This document shows, piece after piece, positions 5,237 through 22,984 of a DNA stretch of 22,984 nucleotides (position 1 is the first letter of the stretch; the number at the start of each line of letters is the position of its first letter). This DNA comes from a virus. Both the position numbers and the translations under genes were made by a program. The DNA lies in the IMG/VR virus record IMGVR_UViG_3300030116_005029, positions 1 to 22,984 of that record. The stretch is one strand, 5' to 3'. The notes under the pieces were generated by a model that saw only the letters and a list, made by a program, of their open reading frames with translations, searched no databases and was not told where the DNA came from.

Positions 5237-6211
5237 ATGGCTACTGCAACTTATCCAGGCGCGGCTGGTAATACCGCGAAGACAGAAGCGGCAACGTTTA
5301 TTCCAGAGATCTGGAGTGATGAAATCATCGCCGCTTATCAAAAGAACCTGAAGATGGCTCCGCTTGTTAAAAAGCTTGCCATGACAGGTAAAAAAGGCGA
5401 CAAGCTTCACATTCCAAAGCCTACTCGTGGCGATGCGAATGCTAAAGCGGCTGACACTGCGGTTACTATCATCGCAAACACCGAAAGCGAATTGACAGTT
5501 GATATCGACCGTCACTTCGAGTACTCACGTCTTATTGAAGACATCGTAGAAGTTCAGGCTCTTTCTAGCCTTCGTCAGTTCTACACTGAAGATGCGGGTT
5601 ACGCGCTTTCAGTGCAGGTTGACAATGATCTTCACGCGGCGGGTACAGGCTTTGGTGACGGCGGTTCTGTCGTATTCAGCCCAGCGGCTACTGACTATCA
5701 GCACACTGGTTGCTTCTTTAATGACAACGGTACTACTACTCAGTACACCGATGACACTATGGTAGCGGCTGACGTATTTACTGATGCTTTCTTCCGCGAC
5801 ATGATCCAGAAGCTCGATGACAACAACGTACCTATGGATGGACGTTCGCTCGTTATTCCTCCTTCTGTCCGCAACACCATCATGGGTATTGACCGATACG
5901 TGTCTTCTGACTTCGTAACTGGTCAAGCTGTGAACTCCGGTCTTATCGGAAACTTGTACGGTGTAGACATCTATGTTTCAGCTAACTGCCGAACTATCGA
6001 AGCGGCGGCTGACAACACTGCGTCTTCTATCGATACTCGTGCGGCTCTTTTGTTCCACACTGACGCTATCGTCATGGCAGAACAGCAGGCTGTGCGTTCA
6101 CAGACTCAGTACAAGCAGGAATACCTCTCAACTCTGTACACGGCTGACTGCCTGTACGGTGTTCAGGTATACCGTCCTGAAGCTGGTTTCGTACTCGCAA
6201 TCGCTGAGTAA
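5237..6211 (+). CDS. Major capsid protein (HK97 fold expected)
   Basis: The 324-residue protein follows the scaffold and carries a near-ideal AGGAG site (5226-5230) six bases before ATG, fitting very high expression. The start has the typical pattern FIPEIWSDEIIAAYQKNLKMAPLVKKL. Next come LHIPKPTRGD, the ELTVDIDRHFEYSRLIEDIVEVQ spine-helix-like region, a variable insertion (about 140-190) and a P-domain-like segment with GRSLVIPPSVRN and LYGVDIYVS. It ends VYRPEAGFVLAIAE, typical of podovirus and siphovirus coats of this length. The codons look even and the coding is uninterrupted. A strong terminator lies ten bases after the stop. The HK97 fold is inferred from family resemblance. Confidence 0.93.
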   Translation: MATATYPGAAGNTAKTEAATFIPEIWSDEIIAAYQKNLKMAPLVKKLAMTGKKGDKLHIPKPTRGDANAKAADTAVTIIANTESELTVDIDRHFEYSRLIEDIVEVQALSSLRQFYTEDAGYALSVQVDNDLHAAGTGFGDGGSVVFSPAATDYQHTGCFFNDNGTTTQYTDDTMVAADVFTDAFFRDMIQKLDDNNVPMDGRSLVIPPSVRNTIMGIDRYVSSDFVTGQAVNSGLIGNLYGVDIYVSANCRTIEAAADNTASSIDTRAALLFHTDAIVMAEQQAVRSQTQYKQEYLSTLYTADCLYGVQVYRPEAGFVLAIAE

Positions 6212-9662: not shown

Positions 9663-10113
9663 TCCGGTAACTGCCATCGCTGGAGCAACTAAAGCCTTTA
9701 CGATGGTTAAAGCAATGGTAGAAGCCGGAAAGTCTGCTGAAGATACAATGATGCAGATAGGCAAGTGGTACGGTCACGCTTCGGACGTGATGTACGCTGA
9801 AAAGAAAGCTAGAAACGTAAATCCTTTTAAACGGGTTGTTTTTAGCGGAAGTGTACAGCAAGAAGCAATGCAGGCATTTGCCGCTAAGAAAAAAATGGAG
9901 GCTCAGCAAAAAGAGCTTCTTTCCATAATAGGAATGGTCTATGGAAAGGAAGGATTGCAAGAGTTCCGTGATATGAGAAAGCAGATTGCAAGAGATAGGG
10001 CAGATACGATCTATCGACAGCAAGAAGCAAAAGAGCAAATGCTTGCAGGACTTTTAGTTTTGTTAGGAATTGCGATAGTGGTAGGTACAGCAATATTTAT
10101 AGCGAGCGGTTAA
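9655..10113 (+). CDS. Tail-anchored membrane protein of the lysis/virion region (152 aa)
   Basis: A 152-residue protein with a helical soluble part and a single membrane segment at residues about 129-150 (LAGLLVLLGIAIVVGTAIFIA), so probably tail-anchored with the bulk in the cytoplasm. The N-terminus MIDPVTAIAGATKAF..VKAMVEAGKSAEDTMMQIGKWYG is a conserved start in marine phages. It is followed by a Lys-rich helical region with EAMQAFAAKKKMEAQQKELL and RDMRKQIARDRADTIYRQQEAKEQM. I recognise the family but not its function. It heads a run of four small membrane proteins, so a part in lysis or membrane remodelling is the likeliest reading. The next ATG immediately follows its stop. Confidence 0.85.
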   Translation: MIDPVTAIAGATKAFTMVKAMVEAGKSAEDTMMQIGKWYGHASDVMYAEKKARNVNPFKRVVFSGSVQQEAMQAFAAKKKMEAQQKELLSIIGMVYGKEGLQEFRDMRKQIARDRADTIYRQQEAKEQMLAGLLVLLGIAIVVGTAIFIASG

Positions 10114-18165: not shown

Positions 18166-20940
18166 ATGTCAATTAACAAACAGTATAGTTATGAAGAAGC
18201 GGTAACAGCTATGACAAACGCTCATAATGCTGGTGACTTTGATAGCGCAAAAAAAATAGCAAATTACATCAAACAAAACGGCCTTCAACCCGCTGAGGAG
18301 CCTGTTGATATCGTAAAAGTAGATGGGTCAGAAAAAGAATCCTCTAGCTACGCAATAGACAAAATTAAATCCGGTGCGGCTGATTTTGTTTTTTCTGCTT
18401 TGAGTCAAAATGACCAAGTTTTGAGTTTGGCGCTAGGCTTAGACGATAAAGACTATTTTGGGGAAGACGGAACATACGACAGAGAAAGGTACGAAAGAGA
18501 CAAGCAAGCCGCCATTCAGAATGCTAAAGAAGAGTTTTTTGGGTATGACGGAATTAAGCCAGCATCAGAGGTCGAAAGGTATCTTGGAACAGCTTTAGAG
18601 TCGGTTGTTGCTGAAGGGCCTTTGGCTTTTGTTGGAGGGAGAGGTCTTTTTGGTAGCGCAAAAGAGCTTCTGCACTCCTATGCCGCCTCCTTATTGGGTC
18701 AGGTTGGCGCGGAAGCTGGTGCAATGACAGCACGAGCTTTGGGCGGGGGAGAAACCGCCCAGACATTGGCAGCTGGGGTTGGCGGCCTTGCTGGATCGAC
18801 TATAACAATACCTGGAAGAGCCGCGCTAGGCGCGGGAGCAGAGGTCGTTTCTAGAGCCGCATCAGAAAGAAAGCGAATAAATCAAAGTGTAGACTCTGCA
18901 ACTGATTATGTTGCAGGCTCAGAGGTAAAGCAGTTAATTGACAAGGCAACTCAAATTCAACCAGAGATAGATGACGTATTGAAAGCAACGGTTGATCTTC
19001 AAGATGAAATTCCAGGATTAATAGTGCCTCCCGTCGCGGCACTAGCTGAAAATCCTATTTACAGAAAAAACACAGAATACTTGTTAAGAACAAATCCTGA
19101 GTTTTACGCTTCAGCTAAAAAATCTTTGTCAGATGCAAGGAGTGTAATTGACGCAAGAAAAGAGGCCCTATTTGGCCAGTCTGGCCCTGCCGCGGATGCT
19201 CAGTTAAAAGCAAGGCTTCCGCAAAATTATGAGAAAGATATCAGGTCAGCAAAAAAACGAATTAACGCCATTGATGATGAGATATCGAAAGTCACTCAAT
19301 CTATACGCCTGTCCCCTAACTATCGTGACGTAGGAGAGAAGGCTAAATTCTTAATGAAAGCCAAAGAGGCAAGCATAAAAAAGAAGCTTAGCCCTAAATA
19401 CAAAAAGCTTTTCTCAGACGCTGAAAGCGCAGGCATCGAGTTTCCTGCAAGATCTGTCGGGGCAGTGCATCAGATGTACAAATCACTGCGATCTGAAGAT
19501 GTATTTGCTTCTTTTCCGTCTTTGACAAACAAGCTAAACAACCTTTGGTCTCCAAAGGAGATAGATCCAAGTCCAATCATTATTCCAGGAATGCCGCAAC
19601 CAAAAAGCAGAATGGAGTATCAAAGCGTTCCTTTGTCGGAAATGGACTCGCTAAAAAGGGCGCTAAATAAGGCTCTCAGGTCTACTAAAGATGAAAGCAC
19701 CGCAAGGATACTTACAAATCTAAAGAAAAGTCTCGATGGTGAAATAGCAAAGATGCCTGATGAGTTTTCTCAAGGATACAAAGATTTAGATCTTCAGTTT
19801 TATAGAGAGCTTGGTATACCTAAAAGTAAGGCAGAGATATCACAATTAGACTCTGCAAGGTTTTTAAGCTCTACTGGTAAATATCTTTCTAAGCCAGAGC
19901 AAGCATCGGAGTTTCTTGCATTTGTGGGGGATGCTGGAATTCCCGTGGTAAGAGATGCCATATTTATGAATATGCATGGTGGTGGACTAGTTGGAGGCGG
20001 CGTTTTTAGCGATGGGCTTGTTGACCCAAGGAAGCTTTCTTCATTTATAAACCAAAACATTCCTTTGATTAATTCTGTTCCAGGCTTACGTGATGAGCTT
20101 ACTAATGCCTCAAGACTTATTGATGGGCTTGTCTCTACAAAGGCTAGACTTGATGCGGAATACAACATTAAAGCAAAAGAGCTTGGAGAGGGATTTTATA
20201 GCGCATATCACAAGAAAGGCTTAGAGACTGTGGCCTCAGAAATACTTTCTTCTAGGTTAGATAGTCAAAAGTACCTAAAGGACATTAAAAACTTTGAGCC
20301 TGATACGGCAAAAATGGCAAAGCAAGCGGTTCGCGCCACTTTGCTTGAGAAGGCCATGAATTCAAGCTCATCAACAATTGATTTTGTTAACAAAAATTCT
20401 AAGGCTTTTTCCGACTGGTTTGGCCCCACTTACGCAAAAGATGTTCAGTCTATAGCCGAAGCATCAGACATTATTGCAAAAATTGACGTAGATAAGATGA
20501 GGTTTGCTATAGATTATGCGGGACAAGACATTCTTATGGAAAAGATAGGAATTGGAGGCCCACAGCTTCAATCAATATTGAGAGATCGAATAACAAACGG
20601 TCTTACAAAGCTCGCGATTATTGGCTCAAAGATAAGCACATCATCTGTTGCCGCAAAGCGAGACTCCAAGGTCATGGAGTTACTATTAAATCCAGAGGCT
20701 TTAGGCGTAATACGTAGAAGCGTTGAGTCTAAAAAATCAAAAATTTTAGATGAAAAAACACTGTCCAAAATTGGAATGGCTATAAACAATTCTGTTTACA
20801 GAGGTCTTTACTTTGGAACTACTGGGGTGGAAGAGGCGCTCAAAGAAGAGGTCGGCTTGGAACTTCAGCCTGGAGTATCTTCGGCAACATTACTAACGCC
20901 AGTAGCGCCGATGCTTACTCAAGAAGTCAATCCCAGCTAA
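18166..20940 (+). CDS. Large internal virion / ejection protein candidate 3 (924 aa)
   Basis: A 924-residue protein. Its first 35 residues (YSYEEAVTAMTNAHNAGDFDSAKKIANYIK) carry the short helix pair with 'A..AGD...A..IA' that opens many phage core and transglycosylase proteins. Residues about 145-230 are Gly/Ala-rich and hydrophobic (FVGGRGLFGS, AASLLGQVGAEAGAMTARALGGG, AAGVGGLAG), fitting a membrane-inserting segment. The remainder is long helical rod with Lys/Ser/Asp-rich segments (e.g. ARSVIDARKEALFG, LKRALNKALRSTKDE). I see no lysozyme or protease active site. AAGGA lies upstream of ATG. As the last late gene it would be the largest ejected protein (T7 gp16 / P22 gp16 position). The gene ends convergent to the minus-strand ninG-like gene, overlapping it by 14 bases. 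Confidence 0.83.
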   Translation: MSINKQYSYEEAVTAMTNAHNAGDFDSAKKIANYIKQNGLQPAEEPVDIVKVDGSEKESSSYAIDKIKSGAADFVFSALSQNDQVLSLALGLDDKDYFGEDGTYDRERYERDKQAAIQNAKEEFFGYDGIKPASEVERYLGTALESVVAEGPLAFVGGRGLFGSAKELLHSYAASLLGQVGAEAGAMTARALGGGETAQTLAAGVGGLAGSTITIPGRAALGAGAEVVSRAASERKRINQSVDSATDYVAGSEVKQLIDKATQIQPEIDDVLKATVDLQDEIPGLIVPPVAALAENPIYRKNTEYLLRTNPEFYASAKKSLSDARSVIDARKEALFGQSGPAADAQLKARLPQNYEKDIRSAKKRINAIDDEISKVTQSIRLSPNYRDVGEKAKFLMKAKEASIKKKLSPKYKKLFSDAESAGIEFPARSVGAVHQMYKSLRSEDVFASFPSLTNKLNNLWSPKEIDPSPIIIPGMPQPKSRMEYQSVPLSEMDSLKRALNKALRSTKDESTARILTNLKKSLDGEIAKMPDEFSQGYKDLDLQFYRELGIPKSKAEISQLDSARFLSSTGKYLSKPEQASEFLAFVGDAGIPVVRDAIFMNMHGGGLVGGGVFSDGLVDPRKLSSFINQNIPLINSVPGLRDELTNASRLIDGLVSTKARLDAEYNIKAKELGEGFYSAYHKKGLETVASEILSSRLDSQKYLKDIKNFEPDTAKMAKQAVRATLLEKAMNSSSSTIDFVNKNSKAFSDWFGPTYAKDVQSIAEASDIIAKIDVDKMRFAIDYAGQDILMEKIGIGGPQLQSILRDRITNGLTKLAIIGSKISTSSVAAKRDSKVMELLLNPEALGVIRRSVESKKSKILDEKTLSKIGMAINNSVYRGLYFGTTGVEEALKEEVGLELQPGVSSATLLTPVAPMLTQEVNPS

Positions 20941-21352
20941 CAAACTCCAACCACCCTGCTACCCCTGAGGCTCGTTCGTTCTCCATACGTGCGGCCTCAG
21001 TTTTATAGTGTTTAGCGATTAGCTTCTGCTCCTTGTTCATCCTCTTGCCAAGCTTGATGTCTTCCGCTTTTTCCCTAATTAACTCCAAGGCACCTTCGCC
21101 ATAGGTGTCAATATAGTGACGGACAAAGTAATCGGGGTTGCTACCGTACTTCTGGTGACAGCCGTAGCAGTGAGCGAAGGCATTCAGCGCATCGTACCGT
21201 ATACCCTTCTTTGACCGGCTGAAGTAGTGAGAGCAGTGCAGTCCCGTGCTGTTTGACTCGTACTGTGCGCCACATCCCTGGCACTTGAAGTCATTACGTA
21301 GCCTGACGCATCTACTGAACCAATGATCTGCCGCTGTTCTTTTTAACTTCAC
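20927..21352 (-). CDS. NinG/Rap-like recombination nuclease (HNH/zinc, 141 aa)
   Basis: A 141-residue protein with a zinc HNH-type core: C24xxC27 (FKCQGCG), then HCSHYFSRSKKGIRYDALNAFAHCYGCHQKYG with H39/C40/H42, N57, C62, C65 and H66. This is the arrangement of NinG/Rap proteins, which in lambda-type phages cut branched DNA during Red-type recombination. The second half is helical and basic (REKAEDIKLGKRMNKEQKLIAKHYKTEAARMEN), fitting DNA binding. The start is GTG at 21352, sharing a four-base GTGA overlap with the stop of the preceding NinB-like gene, with AAGGA upstream. The 3' end overlaps the last late gene tail to tail. Confident on family; the biochemical activity is by analogy. Confidence 0.86.
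   Translation of the reverse strand: MKLKRTAADHWFSRCVRLRNDFKCQGCGAQYESNSTGLHCSHYFSRSKKGIRYDALNAFAHCYGCHQKYGSNPDYFVRHYIDTYGEGALELIREKAEDIKLGKRMNKEQKLIAKHYKTEAARMENERASGVAGWLEFVSWD
20965..21004 (+). terminator. Hairpin terminator for the late transcript, inside the ninG-like gene
   Basis: CTGAGGC (20965-20971) and GCCTCAG (20994-21000) form a perfect seven-base stem with a 22-base loop, followed at once by TTTT (21001-21004). It lies 24 bases after the stop of the 924-residue gene, in the correct orientation to end plus-strand late transcripts. It is also coding sequence of the opposite gene. The loop is long and the T-run short, so it may be weak. Confidence 0.42.
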
Positions 21353-21774
21353 TTTAATTCATCCTTTAGTTGTTGAGGGAATGGCACATAGATCTGTTTG
21401 TTCTCTGAGAGCCACCTGATTAGCACCTCAGCGGTCTCTGAGAGTTCAGCAGGGGTAAGCTTGGTGGTAGTCTCTTTGTTAAACATGGCCTTTGCAGTGG
21501 GCTTGTAGAGCATCTCCTTTACCAGCACCTCAGTAAACGGTATCTCAAAGTTATCACTGAAGGGGTGCCGTACCCAGTATCCAGCATCGTTTAGCTCAAT
21601 GGCTATCTGCCTGAACCACAGGTGCATGGCGTTGTTCTGCCGGTCACTGCGCGTAGTGTCCTTGATTGAGTACATGACGTGCTTGCCATCCTCATACTGC
21701 TTCTTAACGAAGCTAATAAAGAACTTCAGCTTGTTTTTGTTATCGACTATCCAGCGATGTGCAGGGTCTGTCAT
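21349..21774 (-). CDS. NinB-like recombination-associated protein (141 aa)
   Basis: A 141-residue protein with KDTTRSDRQNNAMHLWFRQIAIELNDAGYWVRHPF, then FTEVLVKEMLYKPTAKAMFNKETTTKLTPAELSETAEVLIRWLSE and a YVPFP end. The R.....QN..MH.WF.QIA..LN..G pattern plus the late helix is that of a widespread phage family next to NinG, often called NinB-like. NinB of lambda (Orf) binds ssDNA and SSB and helps RecA-type loading. The N-terminus here (AHRWIVDNKNKLKFF) supports an OB-less helical/beta domain. Start: ATG 21774 with GGAG five bases upstream. The gene pairs directly with the NinG-like gene. Its precise match to the NinB family needs a profile search, so it is called NinB-like only. Confidence 0.72.
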   Translation of the reverse strand: MTDPAHRWIVDNKNKLKFFISFVKKQYEDGKHVMYSIKDTTRSDRQNNAMHLWFRQIAIELNDAGYWVRHPFSDNFEIPFTEVLVKEMLYKPTAKAMFNKETTTKLTPAELSETAEVLIRWLSENKQIYVPFPQQLKDELK

Positions 21775-21789
21775 ATCATCTCCATTCAG

Positions 21790-21919
21790 TTTGCCCAGTT
21801 TGCCCAGTTTGCCCAGAAATCCCCCAATGCCCTTGTTTTAGGGGGCGGGTTAGATGCCCAAACATAGGGGTGGGGGGTTAAACTTGGGCTTTAGGGGCAG
21901 ACGGGGCATTCTGGGCATT
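21790..21919. repeat. Intergenic repeat region: TGCCCA / TGGGC motifs and G-tracts
   Basis: The 145-bp gap between the ATPase and NinB-like genes holds three perfect 9-bp direct repeats TTTGCCCAG (21790-21816). TGCCCA follows again at 21855-21860. The motif then recurs inverted: CTTGGGCT at 21883-21890 and two 9-bp-spaced GGGCATTC units around 21903-21919. A perfect GCCCAA/TTGGGC inverted pair (21856-21861 and 21884-21889) encloses the tract AGGGGTGGGGGG. CCCCC (21821-21825) can pair with GGGGG (21841-21845). No ORF over 30 codons looks credible here. Iterons, an operator or a replication origin are the likely readings; no promoter is clear. Confidence 0.75.
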
Positions 21920-22984
21920 CTACATTGGGTTCCATCGGTAATACTTCTTACCATGTGCGCCTTTGCGCTCCAGCGTTAGGTTGTTTCCCTTCAGCAGGTC
22001 GATGCAGTTACGAAGCATCTTCTTTGTACAGCCGTTAGGATTTACCTCATGGTCACTCAGCAGATCAAACAACTCTGACTGCGCCCATAGCTTGCCTTCT
22101 TTCATAACACTACTGAGCAGGATGTACTCATCTTCGTACTTAGATAGAGCCTTGCCGATATTGATCTGGCCTCTCTGCTTTTCCTTTAACTCGCTGATGT
22201 CATCGGTACTCATAAACTCAACAGAGTCTACGGACTCTTCGTAGTGAACAACTGCGCTAGTTTGCTTGTACTTGAACCCACCCTCGAAGCTGATCTGGCT
22301 ACGATCCTTTTCATTGATTACTAAAAGCTCTTGATAGGCGGCGAACTTATCGTTCACTGGGTCAAGGCCAAACATATTGTCTACGTCTGACTTCAGATCC
22401 CCTACACCTTCGTAGATCAAGCGACCGTCCATGCTTCGGTGCTTGTTGCAGTGGCCTAACAGGATGACCGTGCCACCTGCTGCCGCAAACTCACGGAAGA
22501 CGTGTAGCACGTCCCGCATATCGCCCTTGTTTAACACTGGCGCAAACTTCTTGAGGGTGTCACAGATGACGATCTTGCCATCAGCATGACCCTCTTCGCG
22601 TATCGCGCTGAGCAGGCGTAGCGCATCTTCGGTGTTTCTCAGCATAGGATCTGGCGAGTTAGCCAGGGTGATCATGGTCATCCCGTGCTTCCTGCCCATC
22701 TTCGCCTTCTGGAGTACACCCTTAGCACCGTCATCTTCGTTAAAGTAGATCACGTCGGAGCCTTTTATCAGGTTATTCCGAATACTCTGAAAGAGGTTTC
22801 CCAGTATCCATACCGTCTTTCCTGCGCCGCTGGGTGCGTACACAAGGGTGACTGTGCCGGTTGTAATCATACCTGGTATCACGTCTCGCTCTTTGGCAAG
22901 GCGCTCTTCCATCTCTTCGATGCGGTCATTGACTGCCGCGAACATAAGTTTTGATAGTGCTGAAGACGTTCCGTTTTGGTGCGT
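21920..22984 (-). CDS. RepA-like AAA ATPase / helicase domain protein (5' end outside window)
   Basis: The frame stays open to the right edge, with 13 further codons before the Met at 22945, so the N-terminus, perhaps with a primase or TOPRIM part, is probably missing. Numbered from that Met, the P-loop is APSGAGKT (37-44) in TLVYAPSGAGKTVWILGN. Walker B is KIVICDTLKKF (D129), and a sensor-like segment TVILLGHCNKHR follows (about 159-170). This is the RecA-fold/AAA_25 pattern of RepA and phage replicative helicases. The last 70 residues (EYILLSSVMKEGKLWAQSELFDLLSDHEV...) look like a winged helix ending KKYYRWNPM. It is the first of three minus-strand genes and is followed downstream by the TGCCCA-repeat region. 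Confidence 0.85.
   Translation of the reverse strand, partial: THQNGTSSALSKLMFAAVNDRIEEMEERLAKERDVIPGMITTGTVTLVYAPSGAGKTVWILGNLFQSIRNNLIKGSDVIYFNEDDGAKGVLQKAKMGRKHGMTMITLANSPDPMLRNTEDALRLLSAIREEGHADGKIVICDTLKKFAPVLNKGDMRDVLHVFREFAAAGGTVILLGHCNKHRSMDGRLIYEGVGDLKSDVDNMFGLDPVNDKFAAYQELLVINEKDRSQISFEGGFKYKQTSAVVHYEESVDSVEFMSTDDISELKEKQRGQINIGKALSKYEDEYILLSSVMKEGKLWAQSELFDLLSDHEVNPNGCTKKMLRNCIDLLKGNNLTLERKGAHGKKYYRWNPM

Follow-up and report, generated by a model that had tools for sequence, protein, structure and literature searches.

Organization of the array and its flanking genes

The window, a linear stretch of 22,984 bases that makes up the whole of its IMG/VR record, derives from a phage with SU10-like portal and adaptor genes, together with terminase, head and tail genes. 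The ATPase gene (21920-22984, minus strand), whose 5' end lies beyond the window, encodes an AAA_25 domain at residues 22-183 and a predicted winged helix at residues 292-354 (21923-22111, minus strand). Downstream on the same strand lies a NinB/Orf-like gene (21349-21774), which in some relatives has been displaced or has given way to another gene. As in lambdoid phages, the array is followed by recombination genes of NinB-like and NinG/Rap-like type (20927-21774). On the minus strand, the gap of 145 bases (21775-21919) is bounded exactly by the ATPase stop codon (21920-21922) and the start codon of the next gene (21772-21774).

The gap contains two mirrored arms of 7-bp sites (TGCCCAG, with a spacing of mostly 9 bp) flanking a variable core. 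Read on the ATPase coding strand, the left arm (21886-21919, minus strand), composed of AATGCCCAG AATGCCCCG TCTGCCCCT AAAGCCC, abuts the ATPase stop codon, and the right arm (21787-21832, minus strand) consists of GGGCATTGGGGGATTT, three successive copies of CTGGGCAAA and a terminal CTG. The intervening GC-rich core (21833-21885) carries plus-strand G-tracts at 21841-21845, 21847-21849, 21867-21870 and 21872-21877, and its orientation is opposite in other relatives. Segments 21792-21823 and 21886-21917 form an imperfect inverted repeat with 78% complementarity.

On the plus strand, the right arm reads as three perfect copies of TTTGCCCAG at 21790, 21799 and 21808, spanning 21790-21816, with no further copy in the window; shuffled sequences contain 0.18 copies on average, and none of 100 reaches three. 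The original prediction of three such repeats is therefore borne out, and the CTTGGGCT and GGGCATTC units and G-tracts that it described lie where it placed them. Its view of the repeat unit needs one minor correction: the conserved unit common to both arms is the 7-mer TGCCCAG, and the two bases between units differ from arm to arm. The hexamer TGCCCA by itself is unremarkable in the window, with 13 matches versus 10.9 expected.

Conservation and variation of the array among relatives

Relatives were found via the ATPase, and the best 80 of 123 stretches encoding a relative were kept, with ATPase identities of 73-99%. All of these best 80 carry the same kind of element 3' of the ATPase gene, directly after it in 70 and after one extra small ORF in 10 (L002, L003, L005-L008, L013, L027, L031 and L032). 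The inserted ORF is not of one kind throughout; in all 10 loci it separates the ATPase stop codon from the array and is located before the first unit. Together with 11 loci from pattern scans and the window, the relatives provide 92 regions, comprising 76 distinct elements as delimited by script from local inverted-repeat alignment, with borders that overrun into neighboring sequence in a few loci.

The units fall into several types: TGCCCAG (A); TCCCCAG, TACCCAG or TTCCC (C); GTTGGCCCC-like (D); and longer AT-rich outer arms (E). These four classes were assigned by hand from the arm sequences, and a mechanical division into G and non-G sites agrees with C versus the rest. In the relatives compared, the unit type matches between left and right arms. 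Within the outer 60 nt of each arm, two to six C-runs recur with spacings of 9 nt (290 instances), 10 nt (54), 18 nt (51) and 8 nt (47). Regularly spaced copies of a short direct repeat, a hallmark of iteron-type origins, are therefore present, and a second hallmark, a single array next to the putative initiator gene, recurs in 80 of 80 relatives (the best 80 of 123).

The array is single in the loci examined, and a loose motif scan returned only seven stray matches outside the element, in six of 28 sequences. Scanning the viral collection with the right-arm triplet yielded 40 stretches, all linked to the ATPase except L095, a repetitive stretch with two matches, and L100, which ends before the ATPase. 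A core-hairpin scan yielded 10 stretches, composed of members and of ordinary hairpins in contigs without the ATPase, and the genome collection gave two repeats without it (L129 and L130). The L129 repeat, near position 5440 of a Burkholderia sp. contig, is a tandem 9-bp repeat of GGGCAAACT/GGGCGAACT and is probably unrelated. As the right-arm matches in the viral collection are nearly all ATPase-linked, a mobile hairpin or multi-copy repeat was rejected. Neither a random scatter of the motif nor a lack of conservation in relatives, the two outcomes that were to count against the original prediction, occurred.

The element also varies in orientation. It is present as a whole in the opposite orientation in L034, L035 and L049, and some groups differ from others by inversion of just the core. 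The window core fits the inverted, not the same-strand, cores of four relatives, with inverted versus same-strand z-scores of 6.6 versus 0.4 (L011), 10.9 versus 1.5 (L018), 13.9 versus 1.9 (L022) and 13.9 versus 3.3 (L068). The inverted match is better in 31 of 32 pairs, with one tie. Inversions of both the whole element and the core fit a site that works as double-stranded DNA.

Several loci display additional features. Group E arrays (L071-L081 and L132-L164) possess an AT-rich mirrored outer arm (AAAAACT...ATTTTT), forming palindromes of ~60 nt per arm. Cores of L044-L051 contain nested small palindromes, as though one hairpin had been inserted within another; examples are TTAGGGAAAAG...CTTTTCCCTAA in L047 and a longer set in L050. 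In L007, an insertion with repeated GGTAGCTAC separates the array from the ninB-like start. In L006, TGTAAACATCTGTAAACATTTGTAAC-like repeats at about 9790-9840 occupy the promoter region between the ATPase gene and a divergent gene for a 201-aa protein (phrog_11717, of unknown function), and are possibly an operator of that protein. The 58-kb contig IMGVR_UViG_3300046167_000364 (L014/L109 and L103) holds two ATPase-plus-array copies with different core types, and represents either two joined phages or a chimeric assembly.

The ATPase and its C-terminal winged helix

AAA_25 is the sole Pfam family above cut-off in the ATPases scanned, with no primase domain; it is a RecA-like, RepA-type family rather than a ParA family. 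The C-terminal ~60 residues are modeled by AlphaFold as a winged helix at high confidence (mean pLDDT 87); residue 325 falls in the recognition helix, which precedes the wing, and residue 343 at the wing tip. Fold matches to this domain reach Z-scores of about 8-9, the best being transcription regulators; superimposition onto DNA-bound PadR (5x11) gives a Z-score of 8.7 and an rmsd of 1.8 over 69 residues.

The full-length model, of low confidence, shows middling Z-scores to Rho, RSF1010 RepA and DnaB-type rings, too weak to choose among them. RSF1010 RepA (1olo) is among the best matches of this low-confidence model (Z-score 8.8, rmsd 4.4 over 165 residues, 18% identity). The model outside the C-terminal domain being poor, helicase activity of the ATPase is only putative. 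P4 alpha, SaPI Rep and pRN1 proteins are absent among the structure matches listed, which has no bearing either way. Searches of 50,697 GenBank phage records and 72,556 plasmids gave no match to the ATPase. Among 40 proteins scanned against PHROG, a non-exhaustive set, none strongly matches a polymerase or replicative helicase, and weak primase-family matches fell on DNA methyltransferases; the set thus contains no second replication gene that would back the origin reading.

Covariation of the sites with residue 325

Residue 325, encoded in the window by 22010-22012 (minus strand), is Arg in all 63 loci with GCCC (G-type) sites and Leu in all 18 non-G loci, covering 81 proteins and including every phage whose sites lack the G. 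Counted over distinct arm pairs, 319 of 327 units accompanied by Arg325 and 0 of 63 accompanied by Leu325 have a G before the C-run; with Leu325, T (49) or A (14) takes its place. Arg commonly reads G. The only alignment columns separating the Leu type from all others are 299, 306 and 325, all within the winged helix. Three comparisons of A with C arms, between ATPases 90-96% identical, place 12 of 12, 10 of 14 and 14 of 14 clean amino-acid differences in the last 60 residues.

The match between Arg or Leu and unit type is kept in 10 of 10 loci in which an ORF separates the ATPase gene from the array. A further set has Arg with G-type arms in 42 of 42 loci (residue read by regular expression in 32 and by eye in 10); as it holds no Leu type and consists partly of GCCC-pattern finds and second loci of contigs already used, it shows only an absence of counter-examples. 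The winged-helix tree has one Arg325/Leu325 change, and perfect agreement over 81 loci therefore does not amount to 81 independent observations; what recurs is the transfer of the reader and array as a pair. Co-transfer of neighboring DNA contributes to the Arg/Leu match, and only its decoupling from both flanks argues for selection.

Exchange of the winged helix and array as a cassette

The G/non-G arm class changes eight times on the tree of ATPase residues 1-290 (81 loci) and seven times on the ninB tree (76 loci with ninB), and once on the winged-helix tree. The four hand-assigned classes require 11, 13 and 3 changes on the ATPase core, ninB and winged-helix trees, respectively, with shuffled means near 30; collapsing branches with support <0.9 leaves at least 8, 8 and 3. 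In 49 of 76 loci the ninB gene lies ≤263 nt from the end of the ATPase gene; in the others the distance reaches up to 2.95 kb, so this flank control is not always an equally near neighbor.

Sliding identity between L014 and L015 runs at 94-100% over most of the ATPase gene, falls through 90, 77 and 70% to 65 and 57% over the element, and returns to 90-100% in the next gene. A similar cassette-like dip is present in the window versus L009, L033 versus L036, and L066 versus L067; a same-type control, the window versus L004, remains at 83-96% throughout. L012 and L014, both of the A (GCCC) type, dip as well (83, 73, 83 and 44%), so divergence in this stretch is not confined to type changes. Among ATPases with cores 94-99.5% identical, median winged-helix identity is 68.3% for different unit types (78 pairs) versus 92.1% for the same type (171 pairs). 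These sequence comparisons show that the winged helix and array travel together as one cassette. Covariation and joint swapping indirectly indicate a third hallmark of iteron-type origins, a repeat sequence matched to the DNA-binding domain of the initiator.

The core and its G-tracts

The core had been proposed to form a G-quadruplex, but the G-tracts are not its conserved part. In 36 of 81 loci the two G-blocks share a strand (the ATPase coding strand in 25, the opposite one in 11), and the commonest core class, with 30 of 81 loci, has a G-block facing a C-block. With one-strand G-blocks in under half of the loci, a G-quadruplex was rejected as a conserved feature.

Comparison with known replication systems

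The closest precedents are SaPI Rep and its origin, P4 alpha, and pRN1. SaPI Rep and SCCmec Cch2 are initiator helicases with a C-terminal DNA-binding domain and multiple short iterons directly 3' of their own gene, and SaPI Rep has been proposed to bind as two hexamers (PMC7581432). The window ATPase resembles both in its predicted C-terminal DNA-binding domain and its array of short sites downstream of its own gene. By description, the helicase families of SaPI Rep and Cch2 (DUF927, Primase_Cterm/D5; PMC7581432) are not that of the AAA_25/RecA-like protein here. Further differences are the 7-bp sites placed every 9 bp in mirrored arms and the GC-rich core of the window element. P4 alpha is a helicase whose winged-helix domain binds repeats at the phage origin (PMC4234260); it also has a primase, whereas Pfam gives no primase domain in the window ATPase. 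The C-terminal winged-helix-type domain of SaPI Rep and P4 alpha initiators is thus found here in the model, and their helicase-family domain is not, AAA_25 alone lying above the Pfam cut-off.

In pRN1, a 100-nt stem-loop right after the replication gene (ORF904) is needed for replication and is conserved in form, poorly in sequence; Bordetella phage BIP-1 has a similar stem-loop (PMC4234260). The window likewise has a long palindrome directly 3' of a replication-type gene that encodes a C-terminal winged helix. ORF904 combines a primase and an SF3 helicase with its C-terminal winged helix, but pRN1 lacks iterons, and specific binding went undetected in that system (PMC4234260). Here, in contrast, the arms are iterated sites with a sequence that tracks the winged helix, and Pfam finds no primase-polymerase plus SF3 helicase protein.

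The covariation has a counterpart in PLE, in which the origin and the RepA_N DNA-binding domain of the initiator vary together and have been exchanged as a module on at least two occasions, with origin swaps proving the match (PMC8263062). This exchange perhaps occurs under attack by an origin-directed nuclease (ICP1 Odn; PMC8263062). PLE differs in its N-terminal RepA_N domain, its semi-palindromic iterons of ~30 bp and its nature as a satellite rather than a phage. Lambdoid phages carry iterons within gene O (PMC7466680); the window resembles lambda O and its origin in having several iterons in the replication region followed by nin genes. It differs in that the array lies outside the gene, after the stop codon, and is mirrored, the presumed reader is itself an ATPase, and no AT-rich region was found, so that the lambda-type arrangement of iterons in the initiator gene beside an AT-rich region is absent. 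RSF1010 has a separate iteron-binding protein, RepC (PMC4234260), unlike the reader domain that appears fused to the ATPase here; the likeness is the RecA-like ring ATPase fold match. The proposed system would operate in the manner of these precedents, but because its ATPase belongs to another family and no AT-rich region accompanies the array, we do not place it as a member of a known system. Literature searches, at the level of listings and selected passages, provided precedents and no description of this array or cassette.

Proposed function of the array

The arms vary in step with the DNA-reading domain of the neighboring ATPase, and the gap is therefore probably the place from which this ATPase begins to copy the phage genome. 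We read it as a set of short sites, bound as double-stranded DNA by the ATPase that the phage itself encodes, and most probably as a replication origin. In the proposed mechanism, the C-terminal winged helix would read the 7-bp sites, TGCCCAG in the window, repeated every 9 bp in two mirrored arms, with Arg325 of the recognition helix specifying the G preceding CCC. The mirrored arms would seat two ATPase rings face to face across the core, which may then open or extrude as a hairpin, allowing host replication enzymes to enter in both directions. From sequence comparison we strongly infer that the winged helix contacts the 7-mer sites; that rings assemble, that the core opens and that the outcome is replication rather than regulation we infer with less certainty.

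The origin reading is favored by a neighbor of apparent ring-ATPase type, with a Rho/RepA/DnaB-like fold in a low-confidence model, by the lack of any strong polymerase or replicative helicase match among the other scanned proteins, and by the two mirrored arms, the single array, its occurrence in both orientations and the known analogues. Other results count against it. The GC skew, which had been suggested as a check, does not flip at the element and follows the gene strand in the 27 loci with enough flank. No AT-rich unwinding element occurs within 250 nt on either side (25-nt windows, mean AT 0.50-0.63), and the core is GC-rich. The description of the array as iteron-like, next to a replication ATPase and the best origin candidate is supported by its presence in all of the best 80 of 123 relatives and by the covariation of arms and winged helix. 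In the original prediction of an origin or early-gene switch, the origin is partly supported and much strengthened; the G-quadruplex and the switch are unsupported.

Alternative functions

The main rival, which we consider unlikely, is an operator: bound by the winged helix, the array would control transcription, either of the ninB operon downstream or of the ATPase gene itself, and not the start of replication. Covariation reveals that reader and site form a pair without telling what the pair is for, many regulators contain winged helices and transcription regulators are the best fold matches, and the array immediately precedes the start codon of the next gene. Yet the gene 3' of the array varies among relatives (ninB-like, DNA methyltransferase and others), and the array stays with the ATPase gene. 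None of 55 loci has TGCCCAG in the 250 nt that precede the ATPase gene, with 2.4 expected, and autorepression via the ATPase promoter was rejected on this ground. Neither a promoter-like nor a terminator-like site (hairpin plus T-run) lies inside the window's gap, which together with the missing upstream 7-mer leaves the early-gene switch with no positive support; one weak promoter-like match starts at the gap edge, no more than chance would give. An operator usually has fewer sites than the five to ten that occur here in two mirrored arms.

A function as RNA is very unlikely: the early transcript would fold into a long hairpin between the ATPase and the following gene, and this RNA element would terminate, protect or regulate the message. 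The minus-strand gap RNA has a strong predicted fold, at -63.2 kcal/mol versus -47.8 +/- 3.7 in shuffles (z -4.15), and a T-run follows the inner hairpin in a subset of relatives, including L017, L033 and L057. Against this reading, the element has no Rfam match and the window's gap no terminator-like site, the element and core both occur inverted, and the winged-helix covariation is left unexplained. Across 59 elements chosen from the 92, G-T (G-U) mismatches in the arms are not in excess over A-C mismatches (109 versus 96), with counts that vary by group (31 versus 11 in group B and 23 versus 29 in A_xG), so that overall nothing points to one transcribed strand being under selection. The 7-mers pair between arms, but in most A and C elements the linker dinucleotides face each other unpaired, A-A opposite A-A. 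Paired 7-mers with unpaired linkers are expected for binding sites, less so for a hairpin selected for pairing.

Linkage could also produce the match, with a recombination hotspot or mobile palindrome dragging the adjacent 3' end of the ATPase gene and with no relation between reader and site; this we regard as highly improbable. The covarying residues adjoin the element, the Arg/Leu change is single on the winged-helix tree, and the inversions and nested palindromes point to active rearrangement. Pure linkage does not, however, predict the decoupling of the other flank (seven changes on the ninB tree versus one). Nor does it account for Leu versus Arg tracking one specific site base, for the persistence of the match in all loci with an inserted ORF, or for an element found solely beside the ATPase, chance repeats apart.

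Least probable of all is a partition, packaging or condensation site bound by the ATPase: short-site arrays around a palindrome occur at centromere-like sites too, but the ATPase is RecA-like and RepA-type, not ParA, the terminase gene lies elsewhere, and none of 20 related records of 28-36 kb has a tyrosine integrase, leaving a plasmid-like prophage without support.

Implications

The origin reading turns an unannotated gap into a testable initiator-origin pair, in a phage group whose ATPase has no GenBank phage or plasmid match. As natural swaps provide matched and mismatched pairs, the questions of how an initiator recognizes its origin and why phages exchange origins can be reduced to a simple binding test of one residue against one base. 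We are evenly divided on a broader proposal, that these phages represent an undescribed class of phage replicon: a RecA-like ring ATPase would carry its own origin reader, the C-terminal winged helix, with a one-residue Arg/Leu switch setting the base shown by a mirrored 9-bp array. The reader-plus-array cassette would be traded among marine phages, with at least seven to eight partner changes on either side; the presumed benefit would be to keep each origin from being used or attacked by co-infecting relatives or parasites. If the origin reading is correct, a RecA-like family would join the initiators that carry their own origin-binding domain.
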